This document shows, in pieces, positions 6,241-30,424 of a stretch of 64,000 nt of DNA. Within the stretch, counting starts at the first letter, position 1, and the number at the start of each line of letters is the position of its first letter. The notes under the pieces were generated by a model. That model saw only the letters and a list, made by a program, of their open reading frames with translations, was not told where the DNA came from and did not search any database. Source of the DNA: Loxodes magnus (lineage: Eukaryota; Ciliophora; Karyorelictea; Loxodida; Loxodidae); contig CAMPDV010001546.1 in NCBI GenBank assembly GCA_946699065.1, positions 1 through 64,000 on the forward strand, in the 5' to 3' direction. The position numbers and the translations under genes are program-made.

Positions 6241-7027
6241 AGGCTTCTATCTAATGAAAAAAATTGGAAGAAACTTTGTCGAAACTTTTTACTATCGCAA
6301 AAAAAAATGTAATAATAGAAATTACTAAGAAATAATATAAAAGCACATTGCACTTGCTGAAAAAAACCTTACTAAAGTTGCTAGCACAATGAAGTAATAA
6401 AACTTTAAAAAAAAAAAGTTCAATTTCTAAAAAAAATCTGCTAGCTGCTTAGAAGAAAAACTTCTTTGTGAAAATCTTATAACTCAAAAATTTTTCTGAC
6501 ACTTTTAATAAAAAAAACTTTGCCATAAACTCTTATAACTCAAAAAAATTTTCTAACCCTTTTAAATAAAAAAAACCTTAAAAAAATAACTTCAGAAATT
6601 TTCCGAACTTTTCATTAACCATAAAAATTTTCGTAAGATCTAAAACCAGAAATTTTTTCCAAACTTTTTAATCAAAACTCTTTATAAAGTCTTAAAATTT
6701 CAGAAATTTTCTACTTATAATAAAAATTCTTAAAATTAAAACATATAGAAAATTAAAAAAAATAAACGAAATTTATTTTAATACTTGCTTTTATTTAAGA
6801 TTTGTAATTAATCTTTTGAAAGAAAATAAATGCATATATTAATTTTACATAACCTTTTTTATAAAACTTAATTACAAAAAAAATCTTAAATTTTAAATAG
6901 ATAAATTGATATAAACTTTAAACCTTAAAAACACTTGATGTAAAATAAATAACTAAACACTTAAAGAATAATTAAAGTAATACTTAAAGTAAGACTTAAT
7001 CGAAAAAAATGTTTAATTCAGACTTGC
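6241..7027. other. 3' flank of the WD40 gene, no gene seen
   Basis: AT-rich sequence between the last module copy and the stop codon of the minus-strand WD40 gene. It presumably holds that gene's 3' UTR. Nothing else was recognised. Confidence 0.55.
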
Positions 7028-8818
7028 TCACAACGCTATCCTCCATTTCCTCAAAACCTTGTCCTCACCACCCGATATTAACCACTTGTTGTCCACACTC
7101 TAAGCCAATGGCCATACCCAACCAACATGCCCAGTCAATGTCTAAATACACTCACCCGTAGTAAAATTCCAAATTCTTATTGTCGAATCATATGAAGCCG
7201 ATATTATATAACCATTATCCGAAGTTATTAAAGCCTAGTTCACACATTGAGAGTGCCCGACCAAAGTCCTCAAACAGCTTCCAGTCTGGAAATCCCAGAC
7301 TTTTATCGTCCTATCATAACTTGCAGAAACAATGTATTTCTGGTCCAGAGAGATCGCTACAGATCAAACGTAGTCCGCATGACCAGTTAAAGTCCTCAAA
7401 CAGCTTCCCGTCTGGAAATCCCAGACTTTTATCGTCGTATCATAACTTGCAGAAACAATGTATTTCTGGTCCAGAGAGATCGCTACAGATAAAACTCCGT
7501 TCGCATGACCAGTTAAAGTCCTCAAACAGCTTCCCGTCTGGAAATCCCAGACTTTTATCGTCGTATCATAACTTGCAGAAACAATGTATTTCTGGTCCAG
7601 AGAGATCGCTACAGATAAAACGTAGTCCGCATGACCAGTTAAAGTCCTCAAACAGCTTCCCGTCTGGAAATCCCAGACTTTTATCGTCGTATCATAACTT
7701 GCAGAAACAATGTATTTCTGGTCCAGAGAGATCGCTACAGATCAAACTCCGTTCGCATGACCAGTTAAAGTCCTCAAACAGCTTCCCGTCTGGAAATCCC
7801 AGACTTTTATCGTCGTATCATAACTTGCAGAAACAATGTATTTCTGGTCCAGAGAGATCGCTACAGATCTAACGTAGTTCGCATGACCAGTTAAAACTTA
7901 ATCTAAAATTAATGAATTACCGTAAGATTTGTCATAACTTATTTGATATTTTACTACACTCTAAGTTTCATTCACTACAGAATCATTCAAACCTTAGCCT
8001 TTAGACTCATTAAACGTCACGTTCGTTATCTACTACTAGTCCTAACTCTTATTACAGGAAATTTTACTTAGTAACTAAGTTAGATTATTTTAAGCATCGT
8101 CTAACCTGTCAAACAACTCTCTTACTTAAACGACCTAACTCTAATTAACTCCACTAACCACTTTCTCTATACTCACTTATATCTCAGAAACTATCTACTC
8201 CTTCAAAATTACTTAACTATTGTGGATTTCTTAAGTCGTATTCTTTTTCTACTATTAATCCATAATCATCATATAACTCTTATTGCTATCCTAAGAAACT
8301 TTATTCAATAGCTAAGTAAGATTCATCTCAACTTTGTCTAACCTATTAACCAACTACGTGGCTTAACTAACCTAACTAGCACTAACACTTCTAGTTACAT
8401 TCTCAAGACTTACTTTAATATCTTGTCTTTCTTACACTACTATTCTCTTAACTTCACTCTATATTTATTTAGATATGTCCTACATATACTCACTCGCTAT
8501 CGTAAACTTATTATCCTAACTCTATTGTATTTTGTCCAATTTATCCATCATTTGTTACTAAATCTACTTTAAGGTCTCTTATATGCTTAATACTTGAAGC
8601 TTATTTTAGCTCGCACTAATCTTCATTTCCTCCCAATCCTCCTTAGTAACCATTGCAAACTAAAAATAGAACTAAATCGACGAGATGATTATCATAATAA
8701 CTAAACAAACCTTGACTAACTTTCATCTTGACTCTAACTTATATTCTCTTTGAAGCCTAATACCATTGTCATAACGTACGTAATCTCCTTCTTAGTTATT
8801 TTGCTAACTATTCCCCAT
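7028..8818 (-). CDS. Membrane-anchored coiled-coil protein with seven-blade WD40 propeller
   Basis: Read with TAA/TAG = Gln and TGA = Trp, this is one uninterrupted frame of 597 codons from an ATG (MGNSQQNN...) to a TGA at 7028-7030. Residues about 34-55 form a hydrophobic segment (LVKVCLVIMIIISSI), probably a signal anchor. Residues about 60-300 are Gln-rich heptad-like coiled coil with an internally duplicated phrase (RLDKVEMNLTQLLNKVS and RLDDAQNNLTQLLSKIS). From about residue 305 there are seven GH...WD-type blades: five nearly identical 42-residue blades (core [15 protein letters not shown] and [15 protein letters not shown]), then two diverged blades, ending VLRKWRIAL. Seven is the usual propeller number. 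The five similar blades differ mainly after GH: NYVR, NGVW, DYVL, NGVL, DYVW. WD40 propellers bind proteins or peptides; the partner here is unknown. In-frame TGAs sit where W is expected. No intron is needed. Confidence 0.85.
7270..7895 (-). repeat. Five 126-bp WD40 blade repeats inside the gene
   Basis: Five tandem 126-bp units encode the near-identical blades of the WD40 gene. They are nearly identical in DNA, including synonymous sites, so they were homogenised recently or are under gene conversion. The same unit makes up the 21.7-28.3 kb array. Differences cluster in a 12-bp window between GATCGCTACAGAT and GCATGACCAG (plus-strand orientation); the unit nearest the 3' end also has a few scattered changes (for example SYDRT instead of SYDTT). 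Confidence 0.93.
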
Positions 8819-9284
8819 TTTTTATTATTTTAACACATTTAATTCCTTATATTCGCATGCGACGAGAATTTTACAAAATTGTAACATAATTATTTTAAAT
8901 TATTTTATAAACTTTTTATTATGAATATAAATTATCATACATTTATTTACTTTATAAAATAATTACTTTAAAATTTATTACAACTACTAAAATAATTGTC
9001 AATATAATCATATTTACAACCTTCATATATAAAAATTAAAAGAAAATATAGAAGAATAAATTTAAGAAAAAGCGAACAAAATTATTAAATTAAAATAATA
9101 TTTTAAATACTTTAATTTATTTTACTAACCTAAGTAAAATTATCATAAATTTTAACTATTTTAAGAAAATTACACAAACATAAAATATGAAAAAAAAACT
9201 AAACTATTAAATTAATTATAATAATTCTTTTTATATAAAAATAATTATAAATAAAAAATACGATAGAAACTAATTTTTATCTTC
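8819..9284. other. 5' flank of the WD40 gene, no gene seen
   Basis: AT-rich upstream region that should contain the promoter of the minus-strand WD40 gene. No distinct promoter element can be picked out by eye. Confidence 0.5.
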
Positions 9285-9563
9285 TTTATTACATTTTCTG
9301 GTTTTATGACTAAGAAGAAATTATTTTCATGTCACTGAAAAAATTTCTGCTCAGAGACATTTTTGAAAGAACACTGAATTCATGCTTATCCATTTTTAGT
9401 AAGAATTTAGAAAACTGGCTGCTCATAACGATGGATCTTCATAGTAGCTGTGCCTGGAACATAACGGGCTATCTCGTTATATTCTTATAAAGCGAACGTT
9501 GGGTTGTCTAACTGGAAATGAATTTCCAATCCCAAAAAATTATTTTATCTAAAATTAAATAAT
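9285..9563 (+). mobile_element. SINE-B copy 1 (old, diverged)
   Basis: Diverged relative of the elements at 34372-34676 (inverted) and 40194-40506. Shared landmarks in order are TTCTGGTTTTATG, TGGCTGCTCATA.CGATGGA, AGCTGTGCCTGGAACA, CGTTGGGTTGT and a terminal GGAAATGAATTTCC hairpin followed by AT-rich sequence. The 5' part is shortened compared with the other copies and no target-site duplication is evident, so it is probably an old insertion. Confidence 0.7.
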
Positions 9564-11070
9564 TAAAAATAGCTTAAATTTACTTGACATAAATAAATAA
9601 AAAATATATATCATTTATAAATAACAAGATTTCTTTAAATAAAAATAAAAAAATTTAAATTAACAAAAATAATTATTTATAAATTTTTTTTAAAAGAAAC
9701 CTCTTAAATCATAAAAGATTAAATAAACTAAAAGTAAATAATAAAAAAGTTTAGAAAACAATGTACTCACTAAATTAAATATACTAAGAACCAAATTATA
9801 ACTTAAGATAAACTTAACATTTAAGACTTTAGTAACTTTCTCATTATTTTTTAGTTTTTTTTGAATTTCTAATATTTTTTAGAACTTTTTTAAGATATAA
9901 GATAAAAAATTAAATAAATATATAATAGACCATTCTTTATCATACTCTTTTAATCGAAGAAAAAAATAGATAAAAATGTTCATATCAAAAAAAAACTTGA
10001 CAAAATCCAAGACTAAGAGATGAATTAGTTGATGAGATAACTACTTTGAAATATCTAAGATAATTTAGCAAATCAAGATTAAATTAAAAGATTAAACATT
10101 ATAAAGTAGAATGAAAAAGGAAAATTCTCATTAATAAGTATCAATAGGTAATTAATTTCCAAATAGATTTGAAAAAAATACATAATAGAATTTTGAAGTA
10201 TATGTTTATAAAAATTTATGAAATCTAATATGTTGTTTATTTTCAAAAATTTAAGTTAAAAAAGATTAAAAGATTATAACTAAACTCAATAAGTGTATTT
10301 CTATCAACAGAAATCAATTTACTTATAACTTTAAATAAATATAAATCTAATTGAAAAAAATACCAAGTTTATATTTTATTAGATAAATATATATATATAA
10401 ATTGATAACTTATTCCATATGCTTTTTCGGAGAAACTATTTTGGAGAAATTCAGATATTACAAAGTAATAAAATATTATACTATCTTTATTCGAAAATTT
10501 AAAGAAAAAACATTTTATTTTTTAAATCATAAGAAATTAAAACCATTTTTCACATACTCACTTCTTTAAATCTTCTTCCTACAGTTCTAGTATGTCCTAT
10601 TACTAAGAAGAAAATATAGAATATATATATTAAAGATTTATATAGATAATATTGATTTTATAATTAATTGGATTCAATACTGGATGAGAATTAAATTTAA
10701 AATAGAGTACATGTGTCTTTACTAATTGTTCTTGATTTAATTTAAAAGAAATTAACTACTTTACCATGCAAACAAAAAAGTATATCCTTTAAAAATAATA
10801 AATATAATGAAAAAAATTCCTTAAACTTAATCAATTTTCTATTTATTAACTATAAATTCTGCAGTTTAAATAAACAATAAAAAAAATTTCGACAAGGTTC
10901 TTTTATTAAATTGCTTAGATATATTGCCAAAGATCTTTATTATATTAGTTGAATCATCTTCGTAGAAGAATAGTTAAAATATAAATAAATTTAGCAATAT
11001 TTATAAATATCAAAAAATGTTCTATACCATATAAACTATAAGAATAGATAAATAAATATTATTTAATAAA
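9564..11070. other. AT-rich intergenic DNA, nothing recognised
   Basis: No gene, RNA or element with recognisable similarity was found here. With TGA as the only stop, frames stay open by chance, so open frames alone are not evidence of coding. Confidence 0.5.
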
Positions 11071-11455
11071 AACGTAACACCTCATTGGCGTGCAGCTCTT
11101 TCAATATTAATATTTAAAAAAAGTTCTCATACTTCTTGTTGTCATTTTAGCTGTTCAATGAATTACGTCAATTTCTCTAAATGGAGAATCCGATTATTAA
11201 AAAATTATTCTTGGATCTTGAACCAAACGCTTCAGTCTTCTTGAATAAGATCAAAATAAGAATTAGTTATTAAGTCACTAGCTGGCCCGTCAGTCAAACT
11301 TTCATACTGTTAATGAGAACCTTCGTGCAAGTTTGACTTATTTCTTCCGTGTTTGTCCACTCTTCCCTGTGGTTGCAACTAGTGCGAGATTACTCGTAAT
11401 GCAGTATACACAGCACCAGATTACCTTCTAGTTCTCCTGACCGAAGTCTATATCT
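11071..11455 (-). mobile_element. SINE-A copy 1 (minus, diverged)
   Basis: Inverted, diverged copy of the ~400-bp element seen at 37781-38184 and 49360-49764. Shared landmarks (minus strand) are GGTAATCTGGTGCTGTGTAT, ACTGCATTACGAGTAATCTC, TGAAAGTTTGACTGACGGGC, GAAGACTGAAGC and the tail AAAGAGCTGCACGCCAATGA. The 3' stem-loop is eroded here (GTGTTACG replaces GTGCTACGCG), and an ATTTATT-type tail follows, which fits an older copy. Confidence 0.8.
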
Positions 11456-13050
11456 ATATTTTATATATAAAATAAATAAGAAAGTAGAAAGGTTTATTAA
11501 ATAGAATAATTAAGCATTTACGATAATAGTAGCAAAACTATAAGATTGTTTAAGGGACTTAAAGCTAACAAGATAAGATTATAGTTTATTATTTTTATAA
11601 ATTTCCAGAAATTCAGTCAATAATATAGGAAGAAGAAATAGTTAAGTCTTAGAAACTATTGATCAGTAAGTTCTTCAATATCAATGAATTTTATTTGCTA
11701 TATTGCAACAATAAAAATTAATCCAAACTTAAAAATATTTAATTTGAACAAACTAATAGATGAAGTAAAAAATTTGCTTATTCAAATCCTTAGCGATTTT
11801 TTTTTTAATAAAGAAGCTACAATTTCATAAATGATTTAAAGTTCAGCTGCATGAAAGCCTCTAAGTAAATAAATCGGAGGCGCTACAATTAAATAAGCTA
11901 AGAAAATCTTGAATTTATTAAGATCTTTGCTAAAGAACTGTAGCCAATTAAGCTAGTAGGCTGACTTCATCTTACTTGCAAGTTTCTAAAGCTATATCTA
12001 CAATAGTTGCATAATAGGAATGTAATAAGTATCTATAAATTACTTATAAAGTCTTATTAAATACTTTTAGATAAGTATTTTTATCTTAGTTAATACAAAT
12101 GAATTACTAAGACAAATATTATATGAGATTGAGATTTATTAATAAGCTTTGTATCAAAATTAATAGAAGTATAACATTTTTTTTGTGAAGATATGATTGC
12201 TAGCTGTTTTATTAAATAGTAAACGTATAAAAATACATAGCTTTTAAAAAAATAGAATATAGCTGAGGATAGAGTTATTTAACATAAAGGAAGATATTGA
12301 GTAAGATTATTACTTACATATATTCTATCAGATAAAAATCGTTCGCATTATATATACTTTGAACATTTTTAAAAGAATCTACTAATTCACATTTATGATT
12401 ATTAAGATGATTATTAATTTTTAATATTTTGGAACAAATAAGATCTTCCGTGTTGTTCAATTTGAATATCCTTGAATGAATATAATGGAGATTTTTCTTC
12501 TAATTAGTTTCTAAAAAAAGAGGAAGCTATATAGAACTAATTTATTCTTAGTATTCATAGATTTTAAACTCCTACCAAGGCAAGATAATTGTTCAGATGA
12601 GTTACTTCAAAATCTTGGAACCAATTAGAAACTTTTCTAATTATTAGAGATAAATCAATAATCTCAAGATCATAATTTCGCCAATCTTTTGATTATTCTA
12701 CGATAATGACTTAGTAATTAAGAATAGAAGGCTAAAATCAGGTTTATAGTTTACTTAAAAACTAGAAGTTAATTTTGAATTTATTATTTAATTTTCTAAG
12801 TTAAGAGACTCTTTTCATTCTATTTTAGATAATCGTTTCTTTTTCAAATTAGCTTGAGTTTATTTTGCTTCTTTAAGTTTTTTTATTGACTAACTTTATT
12901 TCACTCAAGAGCTTTCTGAAAATTGTGTCATATTTTGAGACGGTAAAAATCTCTTAGCTCATTAGCTGTGACCAAGAGTTTTTTAATTTAAAAAAACCAT
13001 TTAAAATTTCAAAGGTTAGAAATTAAATCAAGGAGGAGAAAAAATTACAT
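11456..13050. other. AT-rich intergenic DNA, nothing recognised
   Basis: No gene or known element recognised on either strand. Scattered less AT-rich patches (for example around 11870-11890) do not form a recognisable product. Confidence 0.45.
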
Positions 13051-13857
13051 ATGACTATTGTAAGAAAGCTATACTGAGATTTAGAAGTAACGAACATAAG
13101 AAATTTGCTGCTTGAAAATCTTACAACACAACATTCATCTCTAAAAGATGAAATTATAAGTAAAAAAGATGAGAAAATTCACAAAAAATAGAGACCAAAA
13201 GTAATTGCTGAAAATAGATGTTTATATACATATGCAATCAATTAAATCCATTTTAATGAAAAAACTCCTTTGTATTAATAAAGTTTTATCTAAATTAAAA
13301 TAATTTATTTATCATTCTGTGCTTTTTGAAGAGCTATATACACTTACTATAAACTTATTCCTCTAACTTATAAACAATTATATACATCCTTATCAAGTGA
13401 CAAGAGATATATTTAAGATACTAGCAACAGTGTTTTTTAATTTCAGAGAAGTAGGTTAGAAAAACACAAGCATGATGTTATATTATTAGTACATCTTTAG
13501 TTTTCCTTATTACAAGACCTTATACTAGAAGCCAGAATAATCAAGATTAAGAGAAGATGATTGTAAATGAGTAACTACCATGGTGTAACTTTTAATTGAT
13601 TTACTTTCGCATAAATTTTTGAAGCTTCTCTGCTTGTGTAAGCTATTATACATGAATGAGGAATGCAAATCATTATAAAGGGTTATTAGTAAAATTTAAA
13701 CTGTCTGCTTTTACAATAAATCTAAATAACTGCTCGATATCAGAGCTAAATGCCTTTCTTTTAAAACAGAAATTCGAGTCTTCTGAGTTCTTCTACTTCT
13801 ATTCCACTACTTTAGGAAGGATTTGTAAAATAAACAAGAATAAAATATTTTAATAGT
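13051..13857 (+). CDS. Hypothetical open frame, uncertain gene
   Basis: With TAA/TAG = Gln and TGA = Trp a frame of about 269 codons stays open from an ATG at 13051 (MTIVRKLYWDLEV...) to the end of this stretch. It is basic and rich in I, K, L and Q. I recognise no family. Another frame at the 5' end reads CDYCKKAIL-like and could be a remnant of a Cys-containing protein, so the true frame is unclear. A long open frame is weak evidence in DNA this AT-rich with a single stop codon. Treat as a candidate only. Confidence 0.2.
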
Positions 13858-16661
13858 AAAAAGCTTAAAATTGAAAGCGAACCAAACTCTTTAATTATAT
13901 AATTAAATTTAATTAAAAAAGACTTAATAGAATAATAAAGAACGAATAATAAGCTTCTAATGCATATTATAATAGATATAAAGAAATCTTTTTTAACTTT
14001 TAATTTATAGCTAATGGTAATTAAATTTATAAAAGCTTTGCTTTATTTAAATTATACAGAAATTAATTTAGATGGAATTATTCATTTAATTTAGAATAAT
14101 TTTTGAAGCTTCTTTGGTTTTTTATTTATTATGCCTTGAATTTTTTTAAATAAATTAATTGTTGAATATTATTATTTTTATGAATATTAAGAATAAAAAT
14201 CACATAAAACCTTGATTGAGTTAGTTTGTATAAAATAGCAGCATCCTTTCATTTATGATAATCACTTAATATATTTTAGGTTTTGTATACCTTCTACTAA
14301 ATTATTATTTAAATTAAATATCTAAGATAATTTCACTTCTTTGCTAAAAAATTGTATTAAATCTTCTTCTTATTTTACAACAACAATTTCTTTCCTTATA
14401 TCTGATTTAATCAGTACCAGGTGATTACCTTTAGTTTCTTATATTGATATTTGCTTGCTGCATTTATATATTTTCCCTTCTAACACTTTTATAATTCTAT
14501 GCTTCTATAAATTATAAGACTTTATATCATTTTTCATTATTCATAAGAAATTAAATTTAACTATAAATATAAAAAAGCCTTATAATAACTAAGATATTTT
14601 TACTAGCTTATTTACAAATATGAACTTTTTATTAAAGTCAGTTGCATATATCATTATAAATGAATATACTTTGAATTAACAACTTTCTTTTCTTATATTT
14701 AAAAATTTTTATTTTAATAACTTTTAATTCAAATCATGTAGTCCAAAAGTTCAAATCATGATTCACTCTCATTTTTTCTTTTTCTCACTTTTAAAAATAT
14801 CTTTCTTTTCTTATTTTTATATCTTAACACTTAAAGCTATTTTTCTATCCTTTTATTTGATCTATTTTAATCTACTTACTATTTTTATATTGGCTAGTAG
14901 CTCTTTTGTTATTAGCTATCTACTAAGGATTTTTCTAATAAAGTTGATTATAATTAATAAGAATCTTCTTAAGGATATTATATCTCTTGAATGGTTTTAA
15001 GTTTTCTTTCTTCTTTTATTTTTTCCTCTTATTTATTGGTATTTCTATATAATTAAATATAATACCATTATACCAAATATTTCATCTTTCTGATTCCCTT
15101 CACATTCCTCTTTATCCAAAATAGATCGGAACTTTAAATTTAAAAATAGTTTTACCTTTCAAATTCATTAACTGAATCAGTGCTACTAAGATTATTTTAT
15201 TTAATTAAAACTCAAACCTTCTTCTATATCTTATAGTTTTCATTCAGTTTATTCAAAAATTCTAGGACATCAAATAGGAACTTGTTTCTAGATTTAATGC
15301 AACTTTTACTCTAATTTTTTCTTTTTCGCTTCTTATATTCCCTTTATATATCCTTTATCATTACTATTATACCAAATTACATTCATAAATATGTTATTAT
15401 ACTTGATAGCACTATTATTGCTAAACCCATCTCTTTAGATATTTAGGTATTGACTGAAGAAATAGCTCTGTTTTATTACTAATCTAGTGAGTAAATATAG
15501 AAATTGAAGAAAAACAAAGTTATTAACCAAAACTCTTATAGAGCCCGGAGTAAGTTAAGTAATTTGGATTAAAAAGGTTTACTCTTTATGATATACAGAA
15601 GCATACCTAAACTTAATGATATACTAAGAATAATTTGAGTTAAAGGTGTCTAGTGTAATCTAACTAAGATAACTAATAAAAGTAATCTTCTTAGCAAAAA
15701 TAAGGGATAAAAAATTAAAGCTGCTTTCTCATATTTTAGTTCATCAAACAATGAAAAATACTTTCAAGTATATTTATCAAAAACTTCCTCCTAAATTAAA
15801 GTTTATCGTTTGCTTTGCTTTTTAAAGTAAAGAAATTCTTTGATATAAAGTAAAAAAGTACTACCAATGGAACTTAAATGATCTATATAAAAAAATTACC
15901 AAACAGAAATAGGCAGCTAATGTGTTTACTATGCATCATTAATTTTTAAAGTTGGAGAAAACTATTTGAAGAATAGAGGAATATGATATTTAAAGGTTAA
16001 ACATCAAATAAAGAGATAAGGGAAGTCGATAATTTAAGTATTTTTATCTAATGTTAGAAAGTTATTTAATGCAGAAATACCTTTACACTGGATTTAGTAA
16101 TATGTCTAAAAATAAAATGATAAGAGGATAATGAAATTTACTATAGAGTTTTCTAAAAATGCATAAGTTTTGTGACCTATATTTTTTCATTTAGCTTTTT
16201 CAACTTTTTATTTCAAATTTTCAAAGTCAAAATTTTCATTCAACTTTTTGATTAGGCTTTGACTTTGTTCATATTAACAGGTAGATAAAATTTCTGGTTT
16301 ATTAACTTGAAAATAAGCATTTGATTAAAAAAATTCATTTATAAGCATATACTAAAATAAATTTCTTGAAGAAGCGCTTTCAAATATAACTAGACCGACT
16401 GAAGAGATAGCTCCTGTAGAGATTGATCCTATATTATGTATTTATTAGTTTTGTTAAATATTTTCTTTTTATTAATCTGTTATATCAAAACTATCTATCG
16501 ATATTTCATTTTAGCTTTCTATTTCTTCTTAAAGATTATTCTAAGTTTATTTTACTTAGTTTTCTGAATTATTGTCTTATTCTTATTCTTATTCTTATTC
16601 TTATTCTTATTCTTCTTCTCTTTATTCTTTTTTTATATTTCTTTTTTCTCATAAATATTAT
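13858..16661. other. AT-rich intergenic DNA, nothing recognised
   Basis: Contains T-rich low-complexity stretches (around 14760-15000 and 16160-16260) and a CTTATT microsatellite near 16575-16612. Short hydrophobic frames here are composition artefacts. No gene recognised. Confidence 0.5.
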
Positions 16662-19010
16662 TCACTGAAATCTCAAACGCTAAAAACATGAGTAGCAAGT
16701 AGTTCCATCTTCTGAACATTCTCTGCAATTTTCTATTATTTTGCTACAGAATTCATATATTCCAATTTTTCATTTATCTTATTTTGTAGCTGGACACTTC
16801 TCTAAACATTTATTTTATGATAACTTCTGATTTTTACATTTCAAGCATTTACCTTACTCACAAGAAGTACAATTCTAATGTATTTCTTAGCATGGCTTAC
16901 AAATATGATCTTCGTCTAAATAAAATCCACTTTAGCATTCTCAGCATTGCTTAATTTTGGGATGAAATTTAAAACAATTCTCTATCTATAAATTGCAAGG
17001 TTTACAAACTTGATCTCACTCATAATCTTATTCTGTTTGGTCGCATTTTACTTTACATTTGCTTTGTGAAAGATATAGTTTTTTACATTATAAGCAAACA
17101 TTTTCATCTTAACAAATAGCACAATCTTGTATTATTTCTTCGCATGAAACGCTTTATTTCCTTATAGAAAATGATTTCTGAAGCATTTATCACATACTAG
17201 CTTTTCATTATTCTCGTGACATAGTTTACAATCATTATCTTTATCTACATCTTATTCGTATTTGGAGTATTCATCTACACACTCATTTTATGATAACTTC
17301 TTATCACAAAACTAGCAAATATTTTAAGCATCATAGTAGTAATTTTTTAAGCATTCATTTACATATTTGTTTTTTTGAATTTTTTAAGGAAAAAAGCATT
17401 TATAACATTCTTATCCATTTTAGGAGCAAAAATAGCAATCTTAAATGCTTGCAGAGCAAGACTCACATTAATGAAAATCGTTTATAAAATATCCAGCTTT
17501 ACAAAGCAAGCATTCAATTCCATCTTCAGTACATTCAATATAATTACCTAAAGCAAATTACATAATTAGCATATTCTATCACCATCCTTATCTTATTCTG
17601 TACTAGGACATTAGCTGAACTTTGCTTATAGAATATTCTAACTTTCATGGATTAACACATTTATTACTAATAGTTTCTTAGTTAATACATACTTTACAAT
17701 TAATATCTTAGCATTAATTGCATTTACAATCATTTCCTATATAATAGCCATCTCATCCAATGAACATTCTAAAAATTTGATAAAACTTAAGAACATGGTT
17801 CACAAATTCGATCTACATTTATATCTTATTAAGTAAAAGGACATAATTCTATGCATTAGCCAGAGTAAAGATATTTAATCGAACATTAAATGCAAGCAGA
17901 TATATCAGAACAAGTTGCTCAATCGATAAGATAACTAGAACATAAATTATAAGTGTTACTCATAAGAAAATATCCTGGATCATATTATGTGCATATTGTT
18001 CCAGCTAAATTGCATTAAAGACAGTTAGGAAGAGCTACATTACATAATTCACATATATAATCTCCATCTATATCTTATTGATTTGAAGAGCAGTCAGCTT
18101 AACAAATTCCATCTAATCTAAGATAATAAGGCGATAAGCATGATAAGACAAGTTAACCCATCAGTACAATTTTAACAGTTAGTCATGGTTTATGAGCACT
18201 TCTAACAAGTAAAAGGATTAGAACTTTTTCTTCAAGAATCTGAGTTTCATTTGCAAGTATAATCATTTGCGTCTAAATAATAATTCGTCCTACAAGCTCA
18301 GCAACTATTAGACCCAATACTTGAGCAAGTTAAGCATTTTGGATTACAATTTTTAACATATGAATTTATTAGAGGAGAAGTACAATAACCCGTAAAACAA
18401 GACAAAACACAGGAAATTAATTTAACAAGACTACTAAATTCTTAATCAGTAAATCATTTGTTATATCCCCAATATCTTAAATCTAACATTAATCCAATAA
18501 AAGGCTTGACGAGCTAAGTATATTATCCAATTTCCATAGAAGATGCAGAATTTAATAAAAATCAATGTACACCAGCGCTCGCAGATGTACATAATATAGT
18601 AGTCTACCAATAGTATTGTGTATTATAGCATCATAAAATTTTTGATTAATTTGCCATTTGAAAAAGGCGGAAGTATCAAATATTACATTAAAAATAATGA
18701 TTTATTTACCCATAAAGAGATGAACCTAACCAAAATCATGCAATCTAACTTTTGCTTTCATCCTAATTTACTAAAAATCTCGATCAGTCATTTCCTGTTT
18801 GAAACAATATAATATTGCTTACATATAAGTTACTACAGATTTAATTTTAGAATCAACCAGTTACTTCTCATGAAGTTATGAATCCACACTAGGATCATAA
18901 AAAAACTACGCATATGTAGCAGTTATTGCAGAACCAGTAAATTACATAGGATTACTAGCGTCTAAGAGTTAAAGGTACAAAGAATTAATAGTTTATAGAA
19001 AAGCTAAGAT
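16662..19010 (-). pseudogene. Cys-rich furin-like-repeat surface protein gene, frame-broken
   Basis: Minus-strand translation (TAR = Gln, TGA = Trp) gives long runs of evenly spaced cysteine pairs typical of ciliate Cys-rich surface or variant-type proteins. Examples are CNPKCLTCSSIGSNSCWAC, CELCNVALPNCLQC, CIECTEDGIECLLCKAGY-like and ENCRECSEDGTTCYSC, ending at a TGA at 16662-16664. The Cys pattern moves between frames at least four times: near 18135 (an extra base within CTTGTCTTATCATGC), two shifts near 17720-17780, and one near 17170 (AAAGCGTTTCATGC, where a base seems lost). None fits a ~20-nt intron as well as those in the 53-61 kb gene. Single-base indels suggest a decayed gene or assembly errors. 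The N-terminal part (upstream of about 18600) is less clear and the start is not defined. Confidence 0.65.
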
Positions 19011-19495
19011 TATTAGAAGCTAACACATTTTATCTTTAAGCTATCTACTTAGAAATAATTAAATGAAGAAACTTTAATTTTATACTGGTAAAATAAAAAC
19101 TTAAAATATTGAGAATTACATTTTTTAAAGAAAGAGCATCAGCTTCACAATAAGCTTAATGAGTAAACTTTTGCTTTTTTCTTCTAATCTTCTTACTTTA
19201 AAAATTATTTAACCTAAAAATTATTTTTTTCATAAGTAACTAAATTCATAAAAATATTGTCATAAAACTAAAATATCTACTTTTAACTTCTAGGAATTAA
19301 AAAATGTCATCATTGACTTTTATAAACCAAATCATATAAATAAAATTCCTCAATCAGTCTTAAAAGATGAGAAGAGAAAAAGCTAAAGTTTGTGAATAAA
19401 TGAATAAAAGTGATCAATCTCTTAGAAAACAATGTGTACAACATTTACATAATATTGCTTTAAAAGATTTTTTTGATAAATAAATAAATAAATTT
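19011..19495. other. AT-rich intergenic DNA
   Basis: Upstream of the Cys-rich gene; nothing recognised apart from a TAAATAAATAAATT-type tail that belongs to the adjacent SINE-C. Confidence 0.5.
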
Positions 19496-19980
19496 GATTA
19501 TAGAGCGCGTAGCACTCTCGTTGGTGCGCAGCTCTTTAAAAAAATGTTTCATACTGACAAGAATGTTTGTTACTGATAAAATTATCAGATACTGATAAAC
19601 CTTGTTCAATACTGGTATAATTATTCAGTACTGATAAAAATGTTCAATACTGATATAATTTTAGAATACTCGTAATCTTTAATACTTGCTGGAGGTCCAA
19701 GGACATGGCAGGATTGTGTCTCATTGCATCACCAAAGCAGAGGACGACATGTGTCGATTATGGGTACTTAAAATCCACCCCTGATGAAGTTCACAATATT
19801 ATTTCTTTTTCGTTCCAGAATAAAAAATAAACTAAGCCAAGCCAGTGTCGAAGGTCTAAGAATCTTATGTCTCGAGGTCAAACCAAAGTAGAGGAAGACA
19901 AAGTCGATTATGGGTACTTAACTTAAACGACCTCTGATGAAGATGACCTTGTTGTTCATCTTCGAACAACTATGGCGGTT
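19496..19980 (-). mobile_element. SINE-C, dimeric body with shared LINE-type tail
   Basis: On the minus strand the element begins near CCGCCATAGTTGTTCGAAGA and ends with the tail AAAGAGCTGCGCACCAAC...GTGCTACGCGCTCTATAATC followed by (TTTA)n. That tail matches SINE-A and the LINE at 32905, but the body is unrelated to SINE-A. The body holds two related halves, each with GTACCCATAATCGAC, a CTTTGGT-like segment and CTTCATCAG. Between body and tail is a run of short TTATCAGTACTGAA-like repeats. No product is expected; it should depend on a LINE for mobility. Confidence 0.75.
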
Positions 19981-21678
19981 TTAAAAAATATATATAATAA
20001 TAATAATATCTCCCTTCAAAAAAAATGAATATAAAAATAATTAAAAACACATAAAAAAATAAACATAATTTGATCTAACTAACTATAAAACAAAAAGAAT
20101 TTAAGAAAATAAGCAATTAAGATAAGTTTATAATTTCATAATCATAGCTTTATTGACATTAGTAGTTAAGTGTTTAATTAAAATTTGTTAATAATTAGAG
20201 AAATCAGCAAAATATAGTGGTTCTTTGTATTTTATTTTATAATCATTTAACTCTTCAAAAAGTTAAAATTTCCTTTAAAGTTTATATTAGATAATTACTT
20301 TAGAAAGAGAGTAAAATTAACTAATTTTCTTAGAAGTTATTGCTACTCTGATGGTATTACTAAAAATAAAAGGAAAACTAAAAATTTGCAACGAAAAGAG
20401 AGAAAATCATAATCTAAATAAATCTATAGCAAGTTAAAAAAATTTTTGTTAGGAGAACGCAATAAAAAGTTAAAATAGTACTAACAACTTCTGATGTCTT
20501 GTAAAAAATAAGCTTAATAATTAGATAAGCATATTAAAATGATACTAACTTGAAATAATATTCTAAGTATGCTTATTTCACAGCTTTTTAAAATTTTCAA
20601 ATTCTATTTTAGGTTTCTGCAATTAAAAAAAATAAACATTAGGACTAACTACTAAAGATGACTTTAATTTTAGTTTTCAGAAATTCATAAGATTAATTAT
20701 GTTCTTCTTGCCAATCTATTTATTTTAATTGTATATAAAATTTGAAATATTTGATAAAATCTTTTGGCAACTCTTAAAAACTTTTCTAAAGTTAACCGTT
20801 TCTCTTATCCTAAAACAGGATAAGATAGTGATGATGATAGACTCTGTAAAAGTTGTAAGGAAGTACTAAAAGAATATTTTTGGCATAGAGAAAAAAGAAT
20901 TTTATTTTCTTAGTGATAAATGGTTTTACATTAAAAAATACAGTAACGTAAGTTATAATAAATAAGTATTGGAGATAAAAAAATTAAAAAAAAAATTAGT
21001 CAAATACAGATGTCTCTACTTAAAAATTTAAAAAAAATACTGTGCTATAAGAATTTCAAAAAATATTAATATATATCTTATCCATTGAATAATCTGTAAA
21101 ATCAAAAAAATTTAAATGAATGCAAATCGATGCTTGTAACATAAGTAAAAAAAAATATATTTAAAAAAAGTGCAGTTTTTATTAAAAATAATAATTAAAG
21201 AAAACAGAAAAATTTGAAATTGTAATATATTAAATAATATATTTATAACGAAAAAGTTTCTTTCTTATGAGGCAAAAATCAATAAGCATCTTACATTTTA
21301 CTTTAAAAAAAAATCAAGCAAATTTTTTTAAAAATTGAGATAAAATCGAAATGTAATCTAAGCAAAAGTTAGATCTATCTAAAGTGAAAAAAAATCAATG
21401 AATCTTTGAAAAAACACTAAAAGAAATACTTAAAAATCTTCAAAATTTTAAGAAAAAAAAATACAGTAATAAAATTGAAGTATAGATAAATCAGACTAAA
21501 AGTAAAAAAAATAAAAATAAACAACAAAACTGTAAAACAAGTGCAAACTTATTTGTAATAAAAAAGCAAACCTATCTACGCAAAATTGGTTTTGAAAAAT
21601 ATAAATAAAAAAAACATTAAAAAGAAGAAATAAAGTATACAGATAAAAAAAAAGTATAAGATCGAAAAAATTTAAAAA
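19981..21678. other. AT-rich intergenic DNA, nothing recognised
   Basis: No gene or element recognised. It directly abuts the 3' side of the WD40 array. Neither diverged terminal blades nor a clear terminator is present at the junction. Confidence 0.5.
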
Positions 21679-24600
21679 GGAAATCCCAGACTTTTATCGT
21701 CGTATCATAACTTGCAGAAACAATGTATTTCTGGTCCAGAGAGATCGCTACAGATAAAACGTAGTCCGCATGACCAGTTAAAGTCCTCAAACAGCTTCCC
21801 GTCTGGAAATCCCAGACTTTTATCGTCGTATCATAACTTGCAGAAACAATGTATTTCTGGTCCAGAGAGATCGCTACATATCTAACGTAGCTCGCATGAC
21901 CAGTTAAAGTCCTCAAACAGCTTCCCGTCTGGAAATCCCAGACTTTTATCGTCGTATCATAACTTGCAGAAACAATGTATTTCTGGTCCAGAGAGATCGC
22001 TACAGATCAAACTAGTTCGCATGACCAGTTAAAGTCCTCAAACAGCTTCCCGTCTGGAAATCCCAGACTTTTATCGTCGTATCATAACTTGCAGAAACAA
22101 TGTATTTCTGGTCCAGAGAGATCGCTACAGATAAAACTCAGTTCGCATGACCAGTTAAAGTCCTCAAACAGCTTCCCGTCTGGAAATCCCAGACTTTTAT
22201 CGTCGTATCATAACTTGCAGAAACAATGTATTTCTGGTCCAGAGAGATCGCTACAGATAAAACGTAGCTCGCATGACCAGTTAAAGTCCTCAAACAGCTT
22301 CCCGTCTGGAAATCCCAGACTTTTATCGTCGTATCATCACTTGCAGAAACAATGTATTTCTGGTCCAGAGAGATCGCTACAGATAAAACGTAGTCGCATG
22401 ACCAGTTAAAGTCCTCAAACAGCTTCCCGTCTGGAAATCCCAGACTTTTATCGTCGTATCATAACTTGCAGAAACAATGTATTTCTGGTCCAGAGAGATC
22501 GCTACAGATCAAACTCAGTTCGCATGACCAGTTAAAGTCCTCAAACAGCTTCCCGTCTGGAAATCCCAGACTTTTATCGTCGTATCATAACTTGCAGAAA
22601 CAATGTATTTCTGGTCCAGAGAGATCGCTACAGATCAAACGTAGTCCGCATGACCAGTTAAAGTCCTCAAACAGCTTCCCGTCTGGAAATCCCAGACTTT
22701 TATCGTCGTATCATCACTTGCAGAAACAATGTATTTCTGGTCCAGAGAGATCGCTACAGATCAAACGTAGTCCGCATGACCAGTTAAAGTCCTCAAACAG
22801 CTTCCCGTCTGGAAATCCCAGACTTTTATCGTCGTATCATAACTTGCAGAAACAATGTATTTCTGGTCCAGAGAGATCGCTACAGATAAAACGTAGTCCG
22901 CATGACCAGTTAAAGTCCTCAAACAGCTTCCCGTCTGGAAATCCCAGACTTTTATCGTCGTATCATAACTTGCAGAAACAATGTATTTCTGGTCCAGAGA
23001 GATCGCTACAGATCAAACGTAGTCAGCATGACCAGTTAAAGTCCTCAAACAGCTTCCCGTCTGGAAATCCCAGACTTTTATCGTCGTATCATCACTTGCA
23101 GAAACAATGTATTTCTGGTCCAGAGAGATCGCTACAGATAAAACGTAGTCCGCATGACCAGTTAAAGTCCTCAAACAGCTTCCCGTCTGGAAATCCCAGA
23201 CTTTTATCGTCGTATCATAACTTGCAGAAACAATGTATTTCTGGTCCAGAGAGATCGCTACAGATAAAACGTAGTCCGCATGACCAGTTAAAGTCCTCAA
23301 ACAGCTTCCCGTCTGGAAATCCCAGACTTTTATCGTCGTATCATAACTTGCAGAAACAATGTATTTCTGGTCCAGAGAGATCGCTACAGATCAAACTCCG
23401 TTCGCATGACCAGTTAAAGTCCTCAAACAGCTTCCCGTCTGGAAATCCCAGACTTTTATCGTCGTATCATAACTTGCAGAAACAATGTATTTCTGGTCCA
23501 GAGAGATCGCTACAGATCTAACGTAGTTCGCATGACCAGTTAAAGTCCTCAAACAGCTTCCCGTCTGGAAATCCCAGACTTTTATCGTCGTATCATAACT
23601 TGCAGAAACAATGTATTTCTGGTCCAGAGAGATCGCTACAGATAAAACGTAGTTCGCATGACCAGTTAAAGTCCTCAAACAGCTTCCCGTCTGGAAATCC
23701 CAGACTTTTATCGTCGTATCATAACTTGCAGAAACAATGTATTTCTGGTCCAGAGAGATCGCTACAGATAAAACGTAGCTCGCATGACCAGTTAAAGTCC
23801 TCAAACAGCTTCCCGTCTGGAAATCCCAGACTTTTATCGTCGTATCATAACTTGCAGAAACAATGTATTTCTGGTCCAGAGAGATCGCTACAGATCTAAC
23901 GTAGTCGCATGACCAGTTAAAGTCCTCAAACAGCTTCCCGTCTGGAAATCCCAGACTTTTATCGTCGTATCATAACTTGCAGAAACAATGTATTTCTGGT
24001 CCAGAGAGATCGCTACAGATCAAACAGTTCGCATGACCAGTTAAAGTCCTCAAACAGCTTCCCGTCTGGAAATCCCAGACTTTTATCGTCGTATCATAAC
24101 TTGCAGAAACAATGTATTTCTGGTCCAGAGAGATCGCTACAGATCAACGTAGTCCGCATGACCAGTTAAAGTCCTCAAACAGCTTCCCGTCTGGAAATCC
24201 CAGACTTTTATCGTCGTATCATAACTTGCAGAAACAATTTCTGTATTTCTGGTGACCAGTTAAAGTCCTCAAACAGAGACTTTTATCGTATCATAACTGC
24301 AGAAACAGATCCAGAGAGAACGTAGCTCGCATGACCAGTTAAAGTCCTCAAACAGCTTCCCGTCTGGAAATCCCAGACTTTTATCGTCGTATCAGAACTT
24401 GCAGAAACAATGTATTTCTGGTCCAGAGAGATCGCTACAGATAAAACTCCGTTCGCATGACCAGTTAAAGTCCTCAAACAGCTTCCCGTCTGGAAATCCC
24501 AGACTTTTATCGTCGTATCATAACTTGCAGAAACAATGTATTTCTGGTCCAGAGAGATCGCTACAGATAAAACTCCGTTCGCATGACCAGTTAAAGTCCT

Positions 24601-27600
24601 CAAACAGCTTCCCGTCTGGAAATCCCAGACTTTTATCGTCGTATCATAACTTGCAGAAACAATGTATTTCTGGTCCAGAGAGATCGCTACAGATCAAACG
24701 TAGTTCGCATGACCAGTTAAAGTCCTCAAACAGCTTCCCGTCTGGAAATCCCAGACTTTTATCGTCGTATCATAACTTGCAGAAACAATGTATTTCTGGT
24801 CCAGAGAGATCGCTACAGATCAAACTCCGTTCGCATGACCAGTTAAAGTCCTCAAACAGCTTCCCGTCTGGAAATCCCAGACTTTTATCGTCGTATCATA
24901 ACTTGCAGAAACAATGTATTTCTGGTCCAGAGAGATCGCTACAGATAAAACTCCGTTCGCATGACCAGTTAAAGTCCTCAAACAGCTTCCCGTCTGGAAA
25001 TCCCAGACTTTTATCGTCGTATCATAACTTGCAGAAACAATGTATTTCTGGTCCAGAGAGATCGCTACAGATCAAACTCCGTTCGCATGACCAGTTAAAG
25101 TCCTCAAACAGCTTCCCGTCTGGAAATCCCAGACTTTTATCGTCGTATCATAACTTGCAGAAACAATGTATTTCTGGTCCAGAGAGATCGCTACAGATCA
25201 AACTCCGTTCGCATGACCAGTTAAAGTCCTCAAACAGCTTCCCGTCTGGAAATCCCAGACTTTTATCGTCGTATCATAACTTGCAGAAACAATGTATTTC
25301 TGGTCCAGAGAGATCGCTACAGATCAAACTCCGTTCGCATGACCAGTTAAAGTCCTCAAACAGCTTCCCGTCTGGAAATCCCAGACTTTTATCGTCGTAT
25401 CATAACTTGCAGAAACAATGTATTTCTGGTCCAGAGAGATCGCTACAGATCAAACTCCGTTCGCATGACCAGTTAAAGTCCTCAAACAGCTTCCCGTCTG
25501 GAAATCCCAGACTTTTATCGTCGTATCATCACTTGCAGAAACAATGTATTTCTGGTCCAGAGAGATCGCTACAGATAAAACTAGTTCGCATGACCAGTTA
25601 AAGTCCTCAAACAGCTTCCCGTCTGGAAATCCCAGACTTTTATCGTCGTATCATAACTTGCAGAAACAATGTATTTCTGGTCCAGAGAGATCGCTACAGA
25701 TAAAACGTAGCTCGCATGACCAGTTAAAGTCCTCAAACAGCTTCCCGTCTGGAAATCCCAGACTTTTATCGTCGTATCATAACTTGCAGAAACAATGTAT
25801 TTCTGGTCCAGAGAGATCGCTACAGATCAAACGTAGTCCGCATGACCAGTTAAAGTCCTCAAACAGCTTCCCGTCTGGAAATCCCAGACTTTTATCGTCG
25901 TATCATAACTTGCAGAAACAATGTATTTCTGGTCCAGAGAGATCGCTACAGATAAAACGTAGCTCGCATGACCAGTTAAAGTCCTCAAACAGCTTCCCGT
26001 CTGGAAATCCCAGACTTTTATCGTCGTATCATAACTTGCAGAAACAATGTATTTCTGGTCCAGAGAGATCGCTACAGATAAAACTCCGTTCGCATGACCA
26101 GTTAAAGTCCTCAAACAGCTTCCCGTCTGGAAATCCCAGACTTTTATCGTCGTATCATAACTTGCAGAAACAATGTATTTCTGGTCCAGAGAGATCGCTA
26201 CAGATCAAACTCAGTTCGCATGACCAGTTAAAGTCCTCAAACAGCTTCCCGTCTGGAAATCCCAGACTTTTATCGTCGTATCATAACTTGCAGAAACAAT
26301 GTATTTCTGGTCCAGAGAGATCGCTACAGATAAAACTCCGTTCGCATGACCAGTTAAAGTCCTCAAACAGCTTCCCGTCTGGAAATCCCAGACTTTTATC
26401 GTCGTATCATCACTTGCAGAAACAATGTATTTCTGGTCCAGAGAGATCGCTACAGATAAAACGTAGCTCGCATGACCAGTTAAAGTCCTCAAACAGCTTC
26501 CCGTCTGGAAATCCCAGACTTTTATCGTCGTATCATAACTTGCAGAAACAATGTATTTCTGGTCCAGAGAGATCGCTACAGATCAAACGTAGCTCGCATG
26601 ACCAGTTAAAGTCCTCAAACAGCTTCCCGTCTGGAAATCCCAGACTTTTATCGTCGTATCATAACTTGCAGAAACAATGTATTTCTGGTCCAGAGAGATC
26701 GCTACAGATAAAACTCCGTTCGCATGACCAGTTAAAGTCCTCAAACAGCTTCCCGTCTGGAAATCCCAGACTTTTATCGTCGTATCATCACTTGCAGAAA
26801 CAATGTATTTCTGGTCCAGAGAGATCGCTACAGATCAAACTCAGTTCGCATGACCAGTTAAAGTCCTCAAACAGCTTCCCGTCTGGAAATCCCAGACTTT
26901 TATCGTCGTATCATAACTTGCAGAAACAATGTATTTCTGGTCCAGAGAGATCGCTACAGATAAAACGTAGCTCGCATGACCAGTTAAAGTCCTCAAACAG
27001 CTTCCCGTCTGGAAATCCCAGACTTTTATCGTCGTATCATAACTTGCAGAAACAATGTATTTCTGGTCCAGAGAGATCGCTACAGATCAAACTCCGTTCG
27101 CATGACCAGTTAAAGTCCTCAAACAGCTTCCCGTCTGGAAATCCCAGACTTTTATCGTCGTATCATCACTTGCAGAAACAATGTATTTCTGGTCCAGAGA
27201 GATCGCTACAGATCAAACTCCGTTCGCATGACCAGTTAAAGTCCTCAAACAGCTTCCCGTCTGGAAATCCCAGACTTTTATCGTCGTATCATCACTTGCA
27301 GAAACAATGTATTTCTGGTCCAGAGAGATCGCTACAGATAAAACGTAGCTCGCATGACCAGTTAAAGTCCTCAAACAGCTTCCCGTCTGGAAATCCCAGA
27401 CTTTTATCGTCGTATCATAACTTGCAGAAACAATGTATTTCTGGTCCAGAGAGATCGCTACAGATCAAACGTAGTCCGCATGACCAGTTAAAGTCCTCAA
27501 ACAGCTTCCCGTCTGGAAATCCCAGACTTTTATCGTCGTATCATAACTTGCAGAAACAATGTATTTCTGGTCCAGAGAGATCGCTACAGATCAAACTCCG

Positions 27601-28290
27601 TTCGCATGACCAGTTAAAGTCCTCAAACAGCTTCCCGTCTGGAAATCCCAGACTTTTATCGTCGTATCATAACTTGCAGAAACAATGTATTTCTGGTCCA
27701 GAGAGATCGCTACAGATCAAACTCCGTTCGCATGACCAGTTAAAGTCCTCAAACAGCTTCCCGTCTGGAAATCCCAGACTTTTATCGTCGTATCATCACT
27801 TGCAGAAACAATGTATTTCTGGTCCAGAGAGATCGCTACAGATCAAACTCCGTTCGCATGACCAGTTAAAGTCCTCAAACAGCTTCCCGTCTGGAAATCC
27901 CAGACTTTTATCGTCGTATCATAACTTGCAGAAACAATGTATTTCTGGTCCAGAGAGATCGCTACAGATCAAACTCAGTTCGCATGACCAGTTAAAGTCC
28001 TCAAACAGCTTCCCGTCTGGAAATCCCAGACTTTTATCGTCGTATCATAACTTGCAGAAACAATGTATTTCTGGTCCAGAGAGATCGCTACAGATAAAAC
28101 GTAGCTCGCATGACCAGTTAAAGTCCTCAAACAGCTTCCCGTCTGGAAATCCCAGACTTTTATCGTCGTATCATAACTTGCAGAAACAATGTATTTCTGG
28201 TCCAGAGAGATCGCTACAGATCAAACTCCGTTCGCATGACCAGTTAAAGTCCTCAAACAGCTTCCCGTCTGGAAATTCCAGACTTTTATC
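21679..28290 (-). repeat. Giant tandem WD40-blade array (~52 units of 126 bp)
   Basis: About 52 head-to-tail copies of the 126-bp WD40 blade also found in the gene at 7-8.8 kb, in the same orientation. Each unit encodes [15 protein letters not shown]...[17 protein letters not shown]. Units differ almost only at four places: after GHA, [D/N/S], [Y/G/W] and, after V, [L/W/R]; and SAS[Y/D/S]D. There is no start region, membrane segment or diverged closing blade at either end, and both edges fall at the same point of the unit (GGAAAT.CCAGACTTTTATC). Several units are 1-2 bp short in the 12-bp variable window (near 22012, 22395, 23895, 24025, 24145, 25577), so the array is not one frame; the longest continuous part runs from about 25580 to 28290 (about 21 units). 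It looks like a silent reservoir or an expanded pseudogene fragment. Unit number may be affected by assembly. Confidence 0.9.
24225..24330. other. Scrambled unit inside the WD40 array
   Basis: One place in the array has a disordered unit: the CAATGTATTTCTGG segment is duplicated and rearranged, and fragments of the TTTTATCG and CAGAGAGA parts are joined out of order over about 100 bp. All other units are clean. This is either a real recombination scar or a misassembly point, and it separates the ~30-unit right block from the ~20-unit left block. Confidence 0.75.
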
Positions 28291-29011
28291 CTTCGCTGCG
28301 TCTTATAATTCTAGGCATTTATTTTAACTTTTTTTTATTTAAATAATTTTATATTTTCTCATAAAAAAGTTCCTTTATTTATTGTTTCATATTTTTCTTC
28401 AAATTCTAAATTAAATTTATTCTTTTCTCTTTTTTGTATTATTTTTTTTTATTTCTTTTTTAATTATTCTTTTTTCTGATTTTTTTCATCTTTTTTTTCC
28501 GTTTTTAATATGTTGATCTATTTTTTCACTAATTTGTTTTTAAAATTTTTTCATTTTTACATTTTAAAGATGCTATTTTAATTATTTTTTCAACTTGCGT
28601 TTTACAAACTTTATTTTTCTATATTGATTGAAAAATATAATCACATTTTTATTTTAAATGTCTTTTCAGTTCTTTTATTTATTTTGCAAATTTGTATTTT
28701 TTTTGTTTTATTTATAAAAAATTTTATTAGCTTTTTTTCTTAGATTTTTGAATTTTAATTTACATAAATTTTTTTTCAATTTTTATTTTTTTTTATTTTT
28801 TTTTCATTTTTTCACTATGTTTTTAAGTTTTTTTAAGTCCAAAATTTTTTTAATTTTTTCCATTCCCAAAATCTCCTGTAGTGTCAAACTCTTATCGACA
28901 ATTGGTTTTCATTTTTCGCATTTTGAAATTATTTTATTTTTATTCAAATATCTTCTATTCATTCATAGATCAAAATTCGTTTTTAATGCTCTTTCTTCAA
29001 AATTTTTTTAA
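28291..29011. other. T-rich spacer, second copy
   Basis: Low-complexity T-rich sequence similar in character and in several phrases to 4331-5117. It starts directly at the 5' side of the WD40 array and shows no coding potential on the minus strand that could serve as an N-terminal part for the array. Confidence 0.55.
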
Positions 29012-29890: not shown

Positions 29891-30424
29891 CGCAATTTTC
29901 GGAGCTTCTAACTCATGAAAATTTTAACATGAAAGAAATTCAAATATAGTACACTGAAAAAATTCATTTTCGTAAAAAACACATAATGCAACTTAAAAAT
30001 AATAATAAGAAGATTAAACCAAACGTAACCAAAATTTATACAAAAATTAAACAAAATTGCACGAGCACATATCTCAAAAAAAATCTAATACTATACTAGA
30101 AAATAAAAAAAAACTCTAGTACATACTTAAAAAATTTTCCAACGCTCGAAAATTTAAACTTTTTTAGTCTAGTACATAACTCAAAAATTTTTACTCTATC
30201 ACATACTTCGAAAATTTCAAACACTATTAAAATTATTTAAAGAAAATAAAACTTAAAAAATAATATTGCAATTACTCTATCTATTTATTTTAAATAAATT
30301 TGACTTTAAATAATAAAACTTACTAATTTCAGAAAAAGACTTAGAAATTTTTTTTAAAATCAATATAATAGTAATAAGAAAAACAACTTGTTCAGTTAGA
30401 ATAAAGACTTAACAATTTTAAATT
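29891..30424. other. AT-rich 3' flank, no gene seen
   Basis: Between the module copies and the degenerate end of the RING/WD40 gene; nothing recognised. Confidence 0.5.

Follow-up and report, generated by a model that had tools for sequence, protein, structure and literature searches.

Within 64,000 nucleotides of the karyorelict ciliate Loxodes magnus (contig CAMPDV010001546.1, positions 1 to 64,000; hereafter the window), a complete gene for a WD40 repeat protein, gene 1, lies 13 kb from a long array of units of the same WD40 blade. Does this array supply blades to a variable recognition protein, is it a giant coding gene of its own, or is it satellite DNA? We give a probability of roughly 0.6 to the view that gene 1 belongs to a diversified, recognition-type WD40 family under concerted evolution, with the arrays probably acting as a blade bank. 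The features on which this view draws are the following.

7028..8653, minus strand: gene 1, complete coding sequence of 541 aa (ATG at 8653, TGA stop at 7030..7028)
7895..8653, minus strand: N-terminal region of gene 1, residues 1-253, predicted helical, family-defining
7265..7894, minus strand: blades 1-5 of gene 1, near-identical, 126 bp each (starts 7894, 7768, 7642, 7516, 7390)
7031..7264, minus strand: blades 6 and 7 of gene 1, divergent from the first five, conserved among paralogues
8654..21678: spacer between array and gene, 13,025 bp; the first kilobase next to the array is 85% identical to the spacer of a paralogous locus on contig C402
21679..28290, minus strand: array of 52 WD40 blade units (Tandem Repeats Finder, TRF, 52.2 copies), variable at codons 6, 7, 9 and 25
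24170..24342, minus strand: rearranged 173-nt unit within the array

A propeller gene, its family and an array of its blade

As a first-pass annotation of the sequence had claimed, the minus-strand 541-residue gene has seven blades, five of them near-identical 126-bp units (mean nucleotide identity 96.7%), and the residue combinations given for these five, NYVR, NGVW, DYVL, NGVL and DYVW, were reproduced exactly. A Pfam scan of gene 1 returned WD40-type matches only (WD40 E 2.8e-77). A seven-bladed propeller is predicted C-terminal of ca. 250 mostly helical residues, with a predicted local distance difference test (pLDDT) of 93-99 across residues 251-540, and the junction before the blades reads DQVLTGH. 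In this model the residues of the putatively partner-facing blade codons 6, 7, 9, 25 and 27, which we refer to as hot codons, are located at the d-a loop, the start of strand a and the b-c turn. Gene 1 combines near-identical blades within a single gene with variable positions at interaction sites.

For the N-terminus of gene 1 (residues 1-253) Pfam gives no family, a search of protein databases found no relatives at E 1e-3 among 1353 candidates, and NCBIfam gives a single match well under its cut-off (E 0.013; 15.4 bits against 80). Pfam found no NACHT domain in gene 1 or in three frames of its 3.3-kb upstream flank; beyond its blades gene 1 gave no domain match, so that neither HET nor another death-effector domain was found at its N-terminus. 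Gene 1 has no match in PADLOC.

The same N-terminus matches 105 stretches of the assembly at E 1e-3, on 55 contigs, some of these matches being fragments or duplicate contigs. Ten of the 105 stretches, of 2.6-2.9 kb each, were sampled together with gene 1, and all ten carry blades and similar ends. Eight of the resulting 11 genes have seven blades, if in L040 and L042 a first blade interrupted by an insertion is included; one has six (L036, whose frame is broken at hot codon 9), one four and one three. A further gene, on contig C1503 (L009, 1-5000, minus strand), encodes a domain of the protein kinase type (PF07714 in Pfam, E 1.7e-57) upstream of its blades; the kinase is followed by an apparent 20-nt GT-AG intron, a DQVFTGH junction resembling that of gene 1 and blades running off the contig. 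Tandem clusters of gene 1 paralogues are present on C621, C553 and C1367, the last with four copies ca. 9.6-10 kb apart.

In L. magnus UGA is the only stop codon and also encodes Trp (PMC11441545), and every variable W in the window blades is a TGA codon, a point absent from the annotation. A reading of these codons as stops, which would make gene 1 a pseudogene, is ruled out by the alternation of TGG and TGA in paralogues: of the 11 family genes, 3 use TGG and 8 use TGA for N-terminal Trp 7, and among the 66 blades found the canonical Trp 32 is encoded by TGG in 62 and by TGA in 4. Each of the 11 genes terminates with TGA, soon after a KW(R/K)(I/L) motif, and the use of TGA as Trp or stop that characterizes the karyorelict nuclear code (table 27) is found in the 11 genes. 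Because paralogues alternate in this way, the variable TGA codons encode Trp, as judged at sequence level. TAA and TAG were taken as Gln from PMC11441545, without a residue-by-residue check here. In array units on nine contigs, 660 of 668 TGA codons are found at codons 1, 7 and 9, and in the scaffold, Trp at codons 19 and 32 is nearly always encoded by TGG. Variants at codons 7 and 9 on these contigs mostly keep A as the third base (TCA, TGA, GGA, AGA, GTA, TTA, GAA, ATA); as the first two bases vary while this A is mostly fixed, Trp at these codons is always TGA and never TGG.

The array described in the annotation as some 52 units of the same blade, 13 kb away on the same strand, was recovered with 52 unit starts, from 28247 to 21781 on the strand of gene 1, and a distance of 13,025 bp between its 3' end and the start of gene 1. 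Both ends fall within a unit, in AT-rich DNA. Seven of the 52 units deviate from 126 nt: five have 125 nt, one has 124 and one 173. In all six short units the indels fall within bases 14-25, inside or adjoining codons 6-9; these indels may be real or the product of consensus mixing. No convincing higher-order periodicity was found in the window array (best P 0.036, at lag 14, with 24 lags tested), and a blade 23-mer is absent from the viral contigs searched.

Variable codons and selection

Codon usage was tabulated over 49 full-length window units (44 from the array and five from gene 1), excluding the truncated last unit and the seven off-length ones. Codon 6 is AAC in 29 units, AGC in 10 and GAC in 10; codon 7 is TAC in 24, GGA in 20 and TGA in 5; codon 9 is TGA in 25, TTA in 21 and AGA in 3; codon 25 is TAT in 41, GAT in 7 and TCT in 1. 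The remaining 38 codons show four singletons, so the statement that units are near-invariant save at four codons holds. A minor allele in at least two units occurs at eight nucleotide columns, all inside codons 6, 7, 9 and 25, and random columns would fall in so few codons with P = 4e-5. In Podospora, WD40 codons 7, 9, 25 and 27 in the same numbering are reported to be under positive selection (PMC2873952, PMC1805685). The proposed correspondence with this fungal recognition surface is borne out by these positions: codons 7, 9 and 25 vary repeatedly in the window and codon 27 once, in gene 1. Among 40 database WD40 proteins, the five most variable of positions 1-34 are 25, 7, 9, 6 and 27.

The comparison was extended to the assembly (705,730,643 bp in 7843 contigs; the published L. 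magnus macronuclear assembly is given as 706 Mbp, PMC11441545). A WD40 search, of which the best 150 candidates were scored, yielded nine contigs, mostly long arrays, and the array sample consists of chunks of eight listed contigs plus the window (C512 was left out), with units recognised solely by GH, Asp 26 and Trp 32. A codon variant was counted if present in at least three units and 2% of the units of its contig. Counts at seven codons taken from Podospora HET-D/E, a set adopted after earlier counts with a partly data-chosen hot set had been seen, were compared with those at the other 35 codons. Over 1261 array units, 77 nonsynonymous and 3 synonymous variants fall in the seven codons, as against 26 and 34 in the rest (Fisher 6e-13); tallying each variant once overall gives 53:2 and 18:22 (P 9e-9). 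Change per codon, which the annotation had listed as a check, is near-purely nonsynonymous at the hot sites and mostly synonymous in the scaffold.

The nonsynonymous share expected under neutrality, calculated from three consensus units, is 0.81-0.83 at hot codons and 0.75-0.76 elsewhere, while the observed share is 0.96 at hot codons (P 3e-4 against 0.83) and 0.43 elsewhere (P 5e-7 against 0.74). Synonymous variants number 0.43 per hot codon and 0.97 per codon elsewhere; as synonymous change is lower rather than higher at the hot codons, a mutational hot spot alone is disfavoured. The C272 array combines the same hot codons with a scaffold that is clearly distinct. In the seven sampled family genes with near-identical internal blades (the four without such blades were excluded), the ratio of nonsynonymous to synonymous variants is 54:2 at hot codons and 29:18 in the rest (P 8e-6).

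Exchange between loci and the role of the arrays

Compared with the array of their own locus, the five near-identical gene 1 blades show 0, 0, 0, 0 and 1 nt of scaffold difference; 9-11 nt separate them from the consensus of C119, C1503, C620 and C4046, and 35-36 nt from that of C272. Exact 126-bp twins of four of the five blades are present in the window array, in 1, 10, 2 and 5 copies, and none was found in the other loci of this comparison. The window-type scaffold is also present, with zero mismatches, in the gene on C978 (this contig and C1563 are 100% identical over 974 bp and thus uninformative as alleles), and a window-type 30-mer has 848 copies in the assembly. A blade-scaffold 32-mer has 5033 copies (860 + 4173), its reversed control 0. 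Among 30 internal blades of family genes, the nearest scaffold neighbour lies within the same gene for 28, with ties to other genes in 18 of the 28.

Contig C402 repeats the arrangement of the window, with an array, a 13,040-bp spacer and a gene 1 paralogue on one strand. Both arrays end at the identical base of the unit, after the last core strand, and the kilobase that follows is 85% identical (1020 columns). The two genes are 90-96% identical in their N-terminal alignments and 87% in blades 6 and 7. Six complete units at the C402 array end show a single mismatch to the window scaffold in 630 nt, while their residues at codons 6, 7, 9, 25 and 27 (NQRGT, NYLDT, NYLWT, NYLET, NYLET and DQRET) differ from those of the window. 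With the scaffold near-identical and the hot residues different, the scaffold is homogenised between the paralogous loci while the contact codons move.

These loci also bear on two other explanations. The arrays may have grown from WD40 exons by unequal crossing over as satellite DNA, having inherited their hot-codon diversity from the genes and having no present role. Abrupt ends inside units and frame breaks in several arrays would fit such an origin, the genome is reported to be rich in tandem repeats (PMC11441545), and the window itself contains a second 52-copy tandem repeat (45-4288). A free satellite should drift, however, whereas junction and spacer length are conserved between C402 and the window and the scaffold is identical despite 15% flank divergence; moreover, the hot codons of the two arrays differ. 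We consider this origin improbable.

The second is that array length, indels and hybrid codons are assembly or consensus artefacts of collapsed haplotypes or mis-mapped reads. The published Loxodes assembly is unphased and Racon-polished, with haplotypes collapsed where their overlaps exceeded 96% identity, and its authors suspect misassembly of low-complexity repeats (PMC11441545). If the assembly searched here is the published one, collapse and polishing would favour an artefact, as would the position of the short-unit indels and a TGA at codon 7 that can be read as a TAC/GGA hybrid. The pattern recurs, however, on nine contigs, in complete genes and at C402 with the same junction, and an artefact would not favour nonsynonymous change, which makes this explanation very improbable.

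The array lies 5' of the gene on the same strand at all four loci of which the 3' side is seen (window, C402, C1503 and C9), a count that leaves out C119, C6957 and C4046 (contig end) as well as C1832, C272 and C620. On C1503 the array ends near 12 kb and the blades of the kinase gene occupy 1-375, and parts of its spacer align with the window spacer in the same order at 68-76%. On C9 the order follows from 32-mer positions only, with four copies at 4187-4596 and then copies from 16,426 on. Sequence comparison establishes the family, the hot-codon pattern, the use of TGA as Trp, homogenisation across loci and, for two paralogous loci, the order of array, spacer and gene. The upstream array is probably a blade bank for gene 1.

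Several observations weigh against a diversified family supplied from such banks. Donation from array to gene is suggested by homogenisation rather than by an observed event; the fifth gene 1 blade has no exact twin in the window array, and the blade order shared by gene 1 and the array, a run of three, is reached in 386 of 5000 shuffles and is not beyond chance. Codon 27 is invariant in the window array, with its one variant in gene 1, and of the 26 nonsynonymous variants lying beyond the Podospora set, 14 are at codons 1 and 2, so that the hot set is an imperfect match. The tests treat variants as independent, while array variants are related, so the P values given above are too small. Finally, the reading frame is kept at every spacing in the chunks of C6957 (126/126), C1832 (153/153) and C272 (116/116).

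This last point is also the main argument for arrays as giant coding genes, whose proteins would have tens to hundreds of blades and which would form no bank. All 16.3 kb of C6957 is a single frame, open at both ends, in which 129 units follow one another at intervals of exactly 42 residues; in addition, scaffold variants are mostly synonymous, and the window array and that of C402 have their 3' ends at one and the same position, after the last core strand. Other arrays are broken, as seen from the off-length units of the window and from the frame-keeping spacings in C620 (120/125), C9 (55/60) and C4046 (35/37), and two further arrays begin within a unit. Pfam found no protein domain upstream of the window array, where the DNA is AT-rich, and the in-frame ATGs present there are separated from the blades by TGA, which is ambiguous in this code. 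On balance giant genes appear doubtful. A survey of repetitive propellers gives a maximum of 47 consecutive blades, which it doubts for assembly reasons (PMC9218822), and the array lengths in Loxodes are subject to the same doubt.

Under the preferred reading of a diversified family with blade banks, gene 1 belongs to a large L. magnus family whose members join a helical N-terminus to a WD40 propeller, mostly of seven blades. In the internal blades, codons 6, 7, 9, 25 and 27, taken to face a partner, would be under diversifying selection, while purifying selection and exchange between copies, i.e. concerted evolution, would hold the remainder of the blade uniform. The combinations at the hot sites would be reshuffled as blades, genes and arrays recombine by gene conversion and unequal crossing over, with the outcome that each gene shows a mosaic binding face. 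We infer from this pattern that the propellers may bind partners and may act in self/non-self recognition. A bolder version, put forward tentatively as a possibility, is a combinatorial ciliate receptor system. In it, dozens of WD40 genes, their N-termini helical or of the kinase type, would take blades from banks that lie upstream and comprise tens to hundreds of units, and gene conversion would keep the scaffold uniform while continually reassorting the contact residues into an adaptive-like self/non-self repertoire.

Known systems and other features of the window

The closest blade-level likeness is found in the HNWD/NWD genes of Podospora anserina (HET-D, HET-E, HET-R). Their WD40 units of 42 residues are reported to be nearly the same throughout a gene and to vary at codons 7, 9, 25 and 27 on the propeller top, with concerted evolution within and between loci and blade homogenisation even at pseudogene loci (PMC1805685, PMC2873952, PMC12222747). 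In contrast to these, codon 6 varies too in the ciliate, long blade arrays lie beside the genes, and the host belongs to a different kingdom with a different genetic code. The comparison with fungal HET/NACHT-WD40 genes made in the annotation thus stands for the blades and is unsupported for the rest of the protein: the N-terminus is helical, neither NACHT nor HET was found in gene 1 or the scanned flanks, and the only fused effector seen is the kinase of one other gene. As the NACHT feature fails, gene 1 is kept apart from the HNWD receptors.

In silent-cassette antigenic variation, a complete gene is accompanied by many partial copies of its variable module. In the window and at C402, partial copies likewise lie beside a complete gene, but the Loxodes module is a single 42-residue blade and directed donation is putative.

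Gene 1 and its relatives are a highly repetitive WD40 family. Such propellers, with young near-identical blades and diverse interaction sites, have been described before, 86% of the 305 proteins in one study coming from bacteria and fungi (PMC5587647), and like gene 1 they are locally repetitive with adjacent divergent blades (PMC9218822). The maximum of 47 blades in that survey (PMC9218822) contrasts with the 129 in one C6957 frame, and the host here is a ciliate. The nearest ciliate precedent found is the 90-bp exon arrays of Tetrahymena leucine-rich repeat (LRR) genes, in which very many near-identical units are shuffled between paralogues by ectopic recombination; those exons are separated by introns and lie inside genes, whereas the Loxodes units are intron-free between units and lie partly outside recognisable genes (PMC6564038). 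WD40 is reported among the most frequent domains of species-specific Tetrahymena genes (PMC6564038). The Loxodes genome paper does not contain the word WD40 in its main text (PMC11441545). Among open-licence PMC papers we found no report of WD40 in Loxodes or karyorelicts, none, by title, of hypervariable or allorecognition WD40 repeats in ciliates, and no equivalent in Paramecium or Tetrahymena.

A genome-wide family that shares its diversified blade codons with fungal allorecognition receptors, though it belongs to another kingdom and shows no NACHT switch in the gene examined, would point to repeated propellers as a convergent route to variable binding faces, and the paralogous array-gene loci in one assembly make blade exchange directly testable from existing reads. 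To our knowledge, allorecognition and innate sensing at the gene level have hardly been described in ciliates.

Elsewhere in the window, a second WD40 gene or remnant lies on the minus strand at about 30440-32400. It has a Cys-rich N-terminus, RING-like by eye (MDNNQCSNCKEQ), a weak pentapeptide-repeat match and three clear blades, with a TGA at a canonical blade Trp, after which the frame degrades. The stretches 4791-6260 and 28697-29921, each 3' of a minus-strand WD40 gene, are 78-85% alike and appear to be remains of a local duplication. A phage search with another open reading frame of the window gave no match. The 52-copy tandem repeat at 45-4288 has an 80-bp unit, and a 324-bp period was scored too. 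A dispersed repeat family occupies 11073-11433, 37760-38221 and 49336-49799 at 76-86% identity, with one copy inverted, and an inverted pair of ca. 320 bp (34370-34682 and 40187-40506) is 89% identical. A tRNA-Lys (CTT) gene is located at 52984-53056 on the plus strand.

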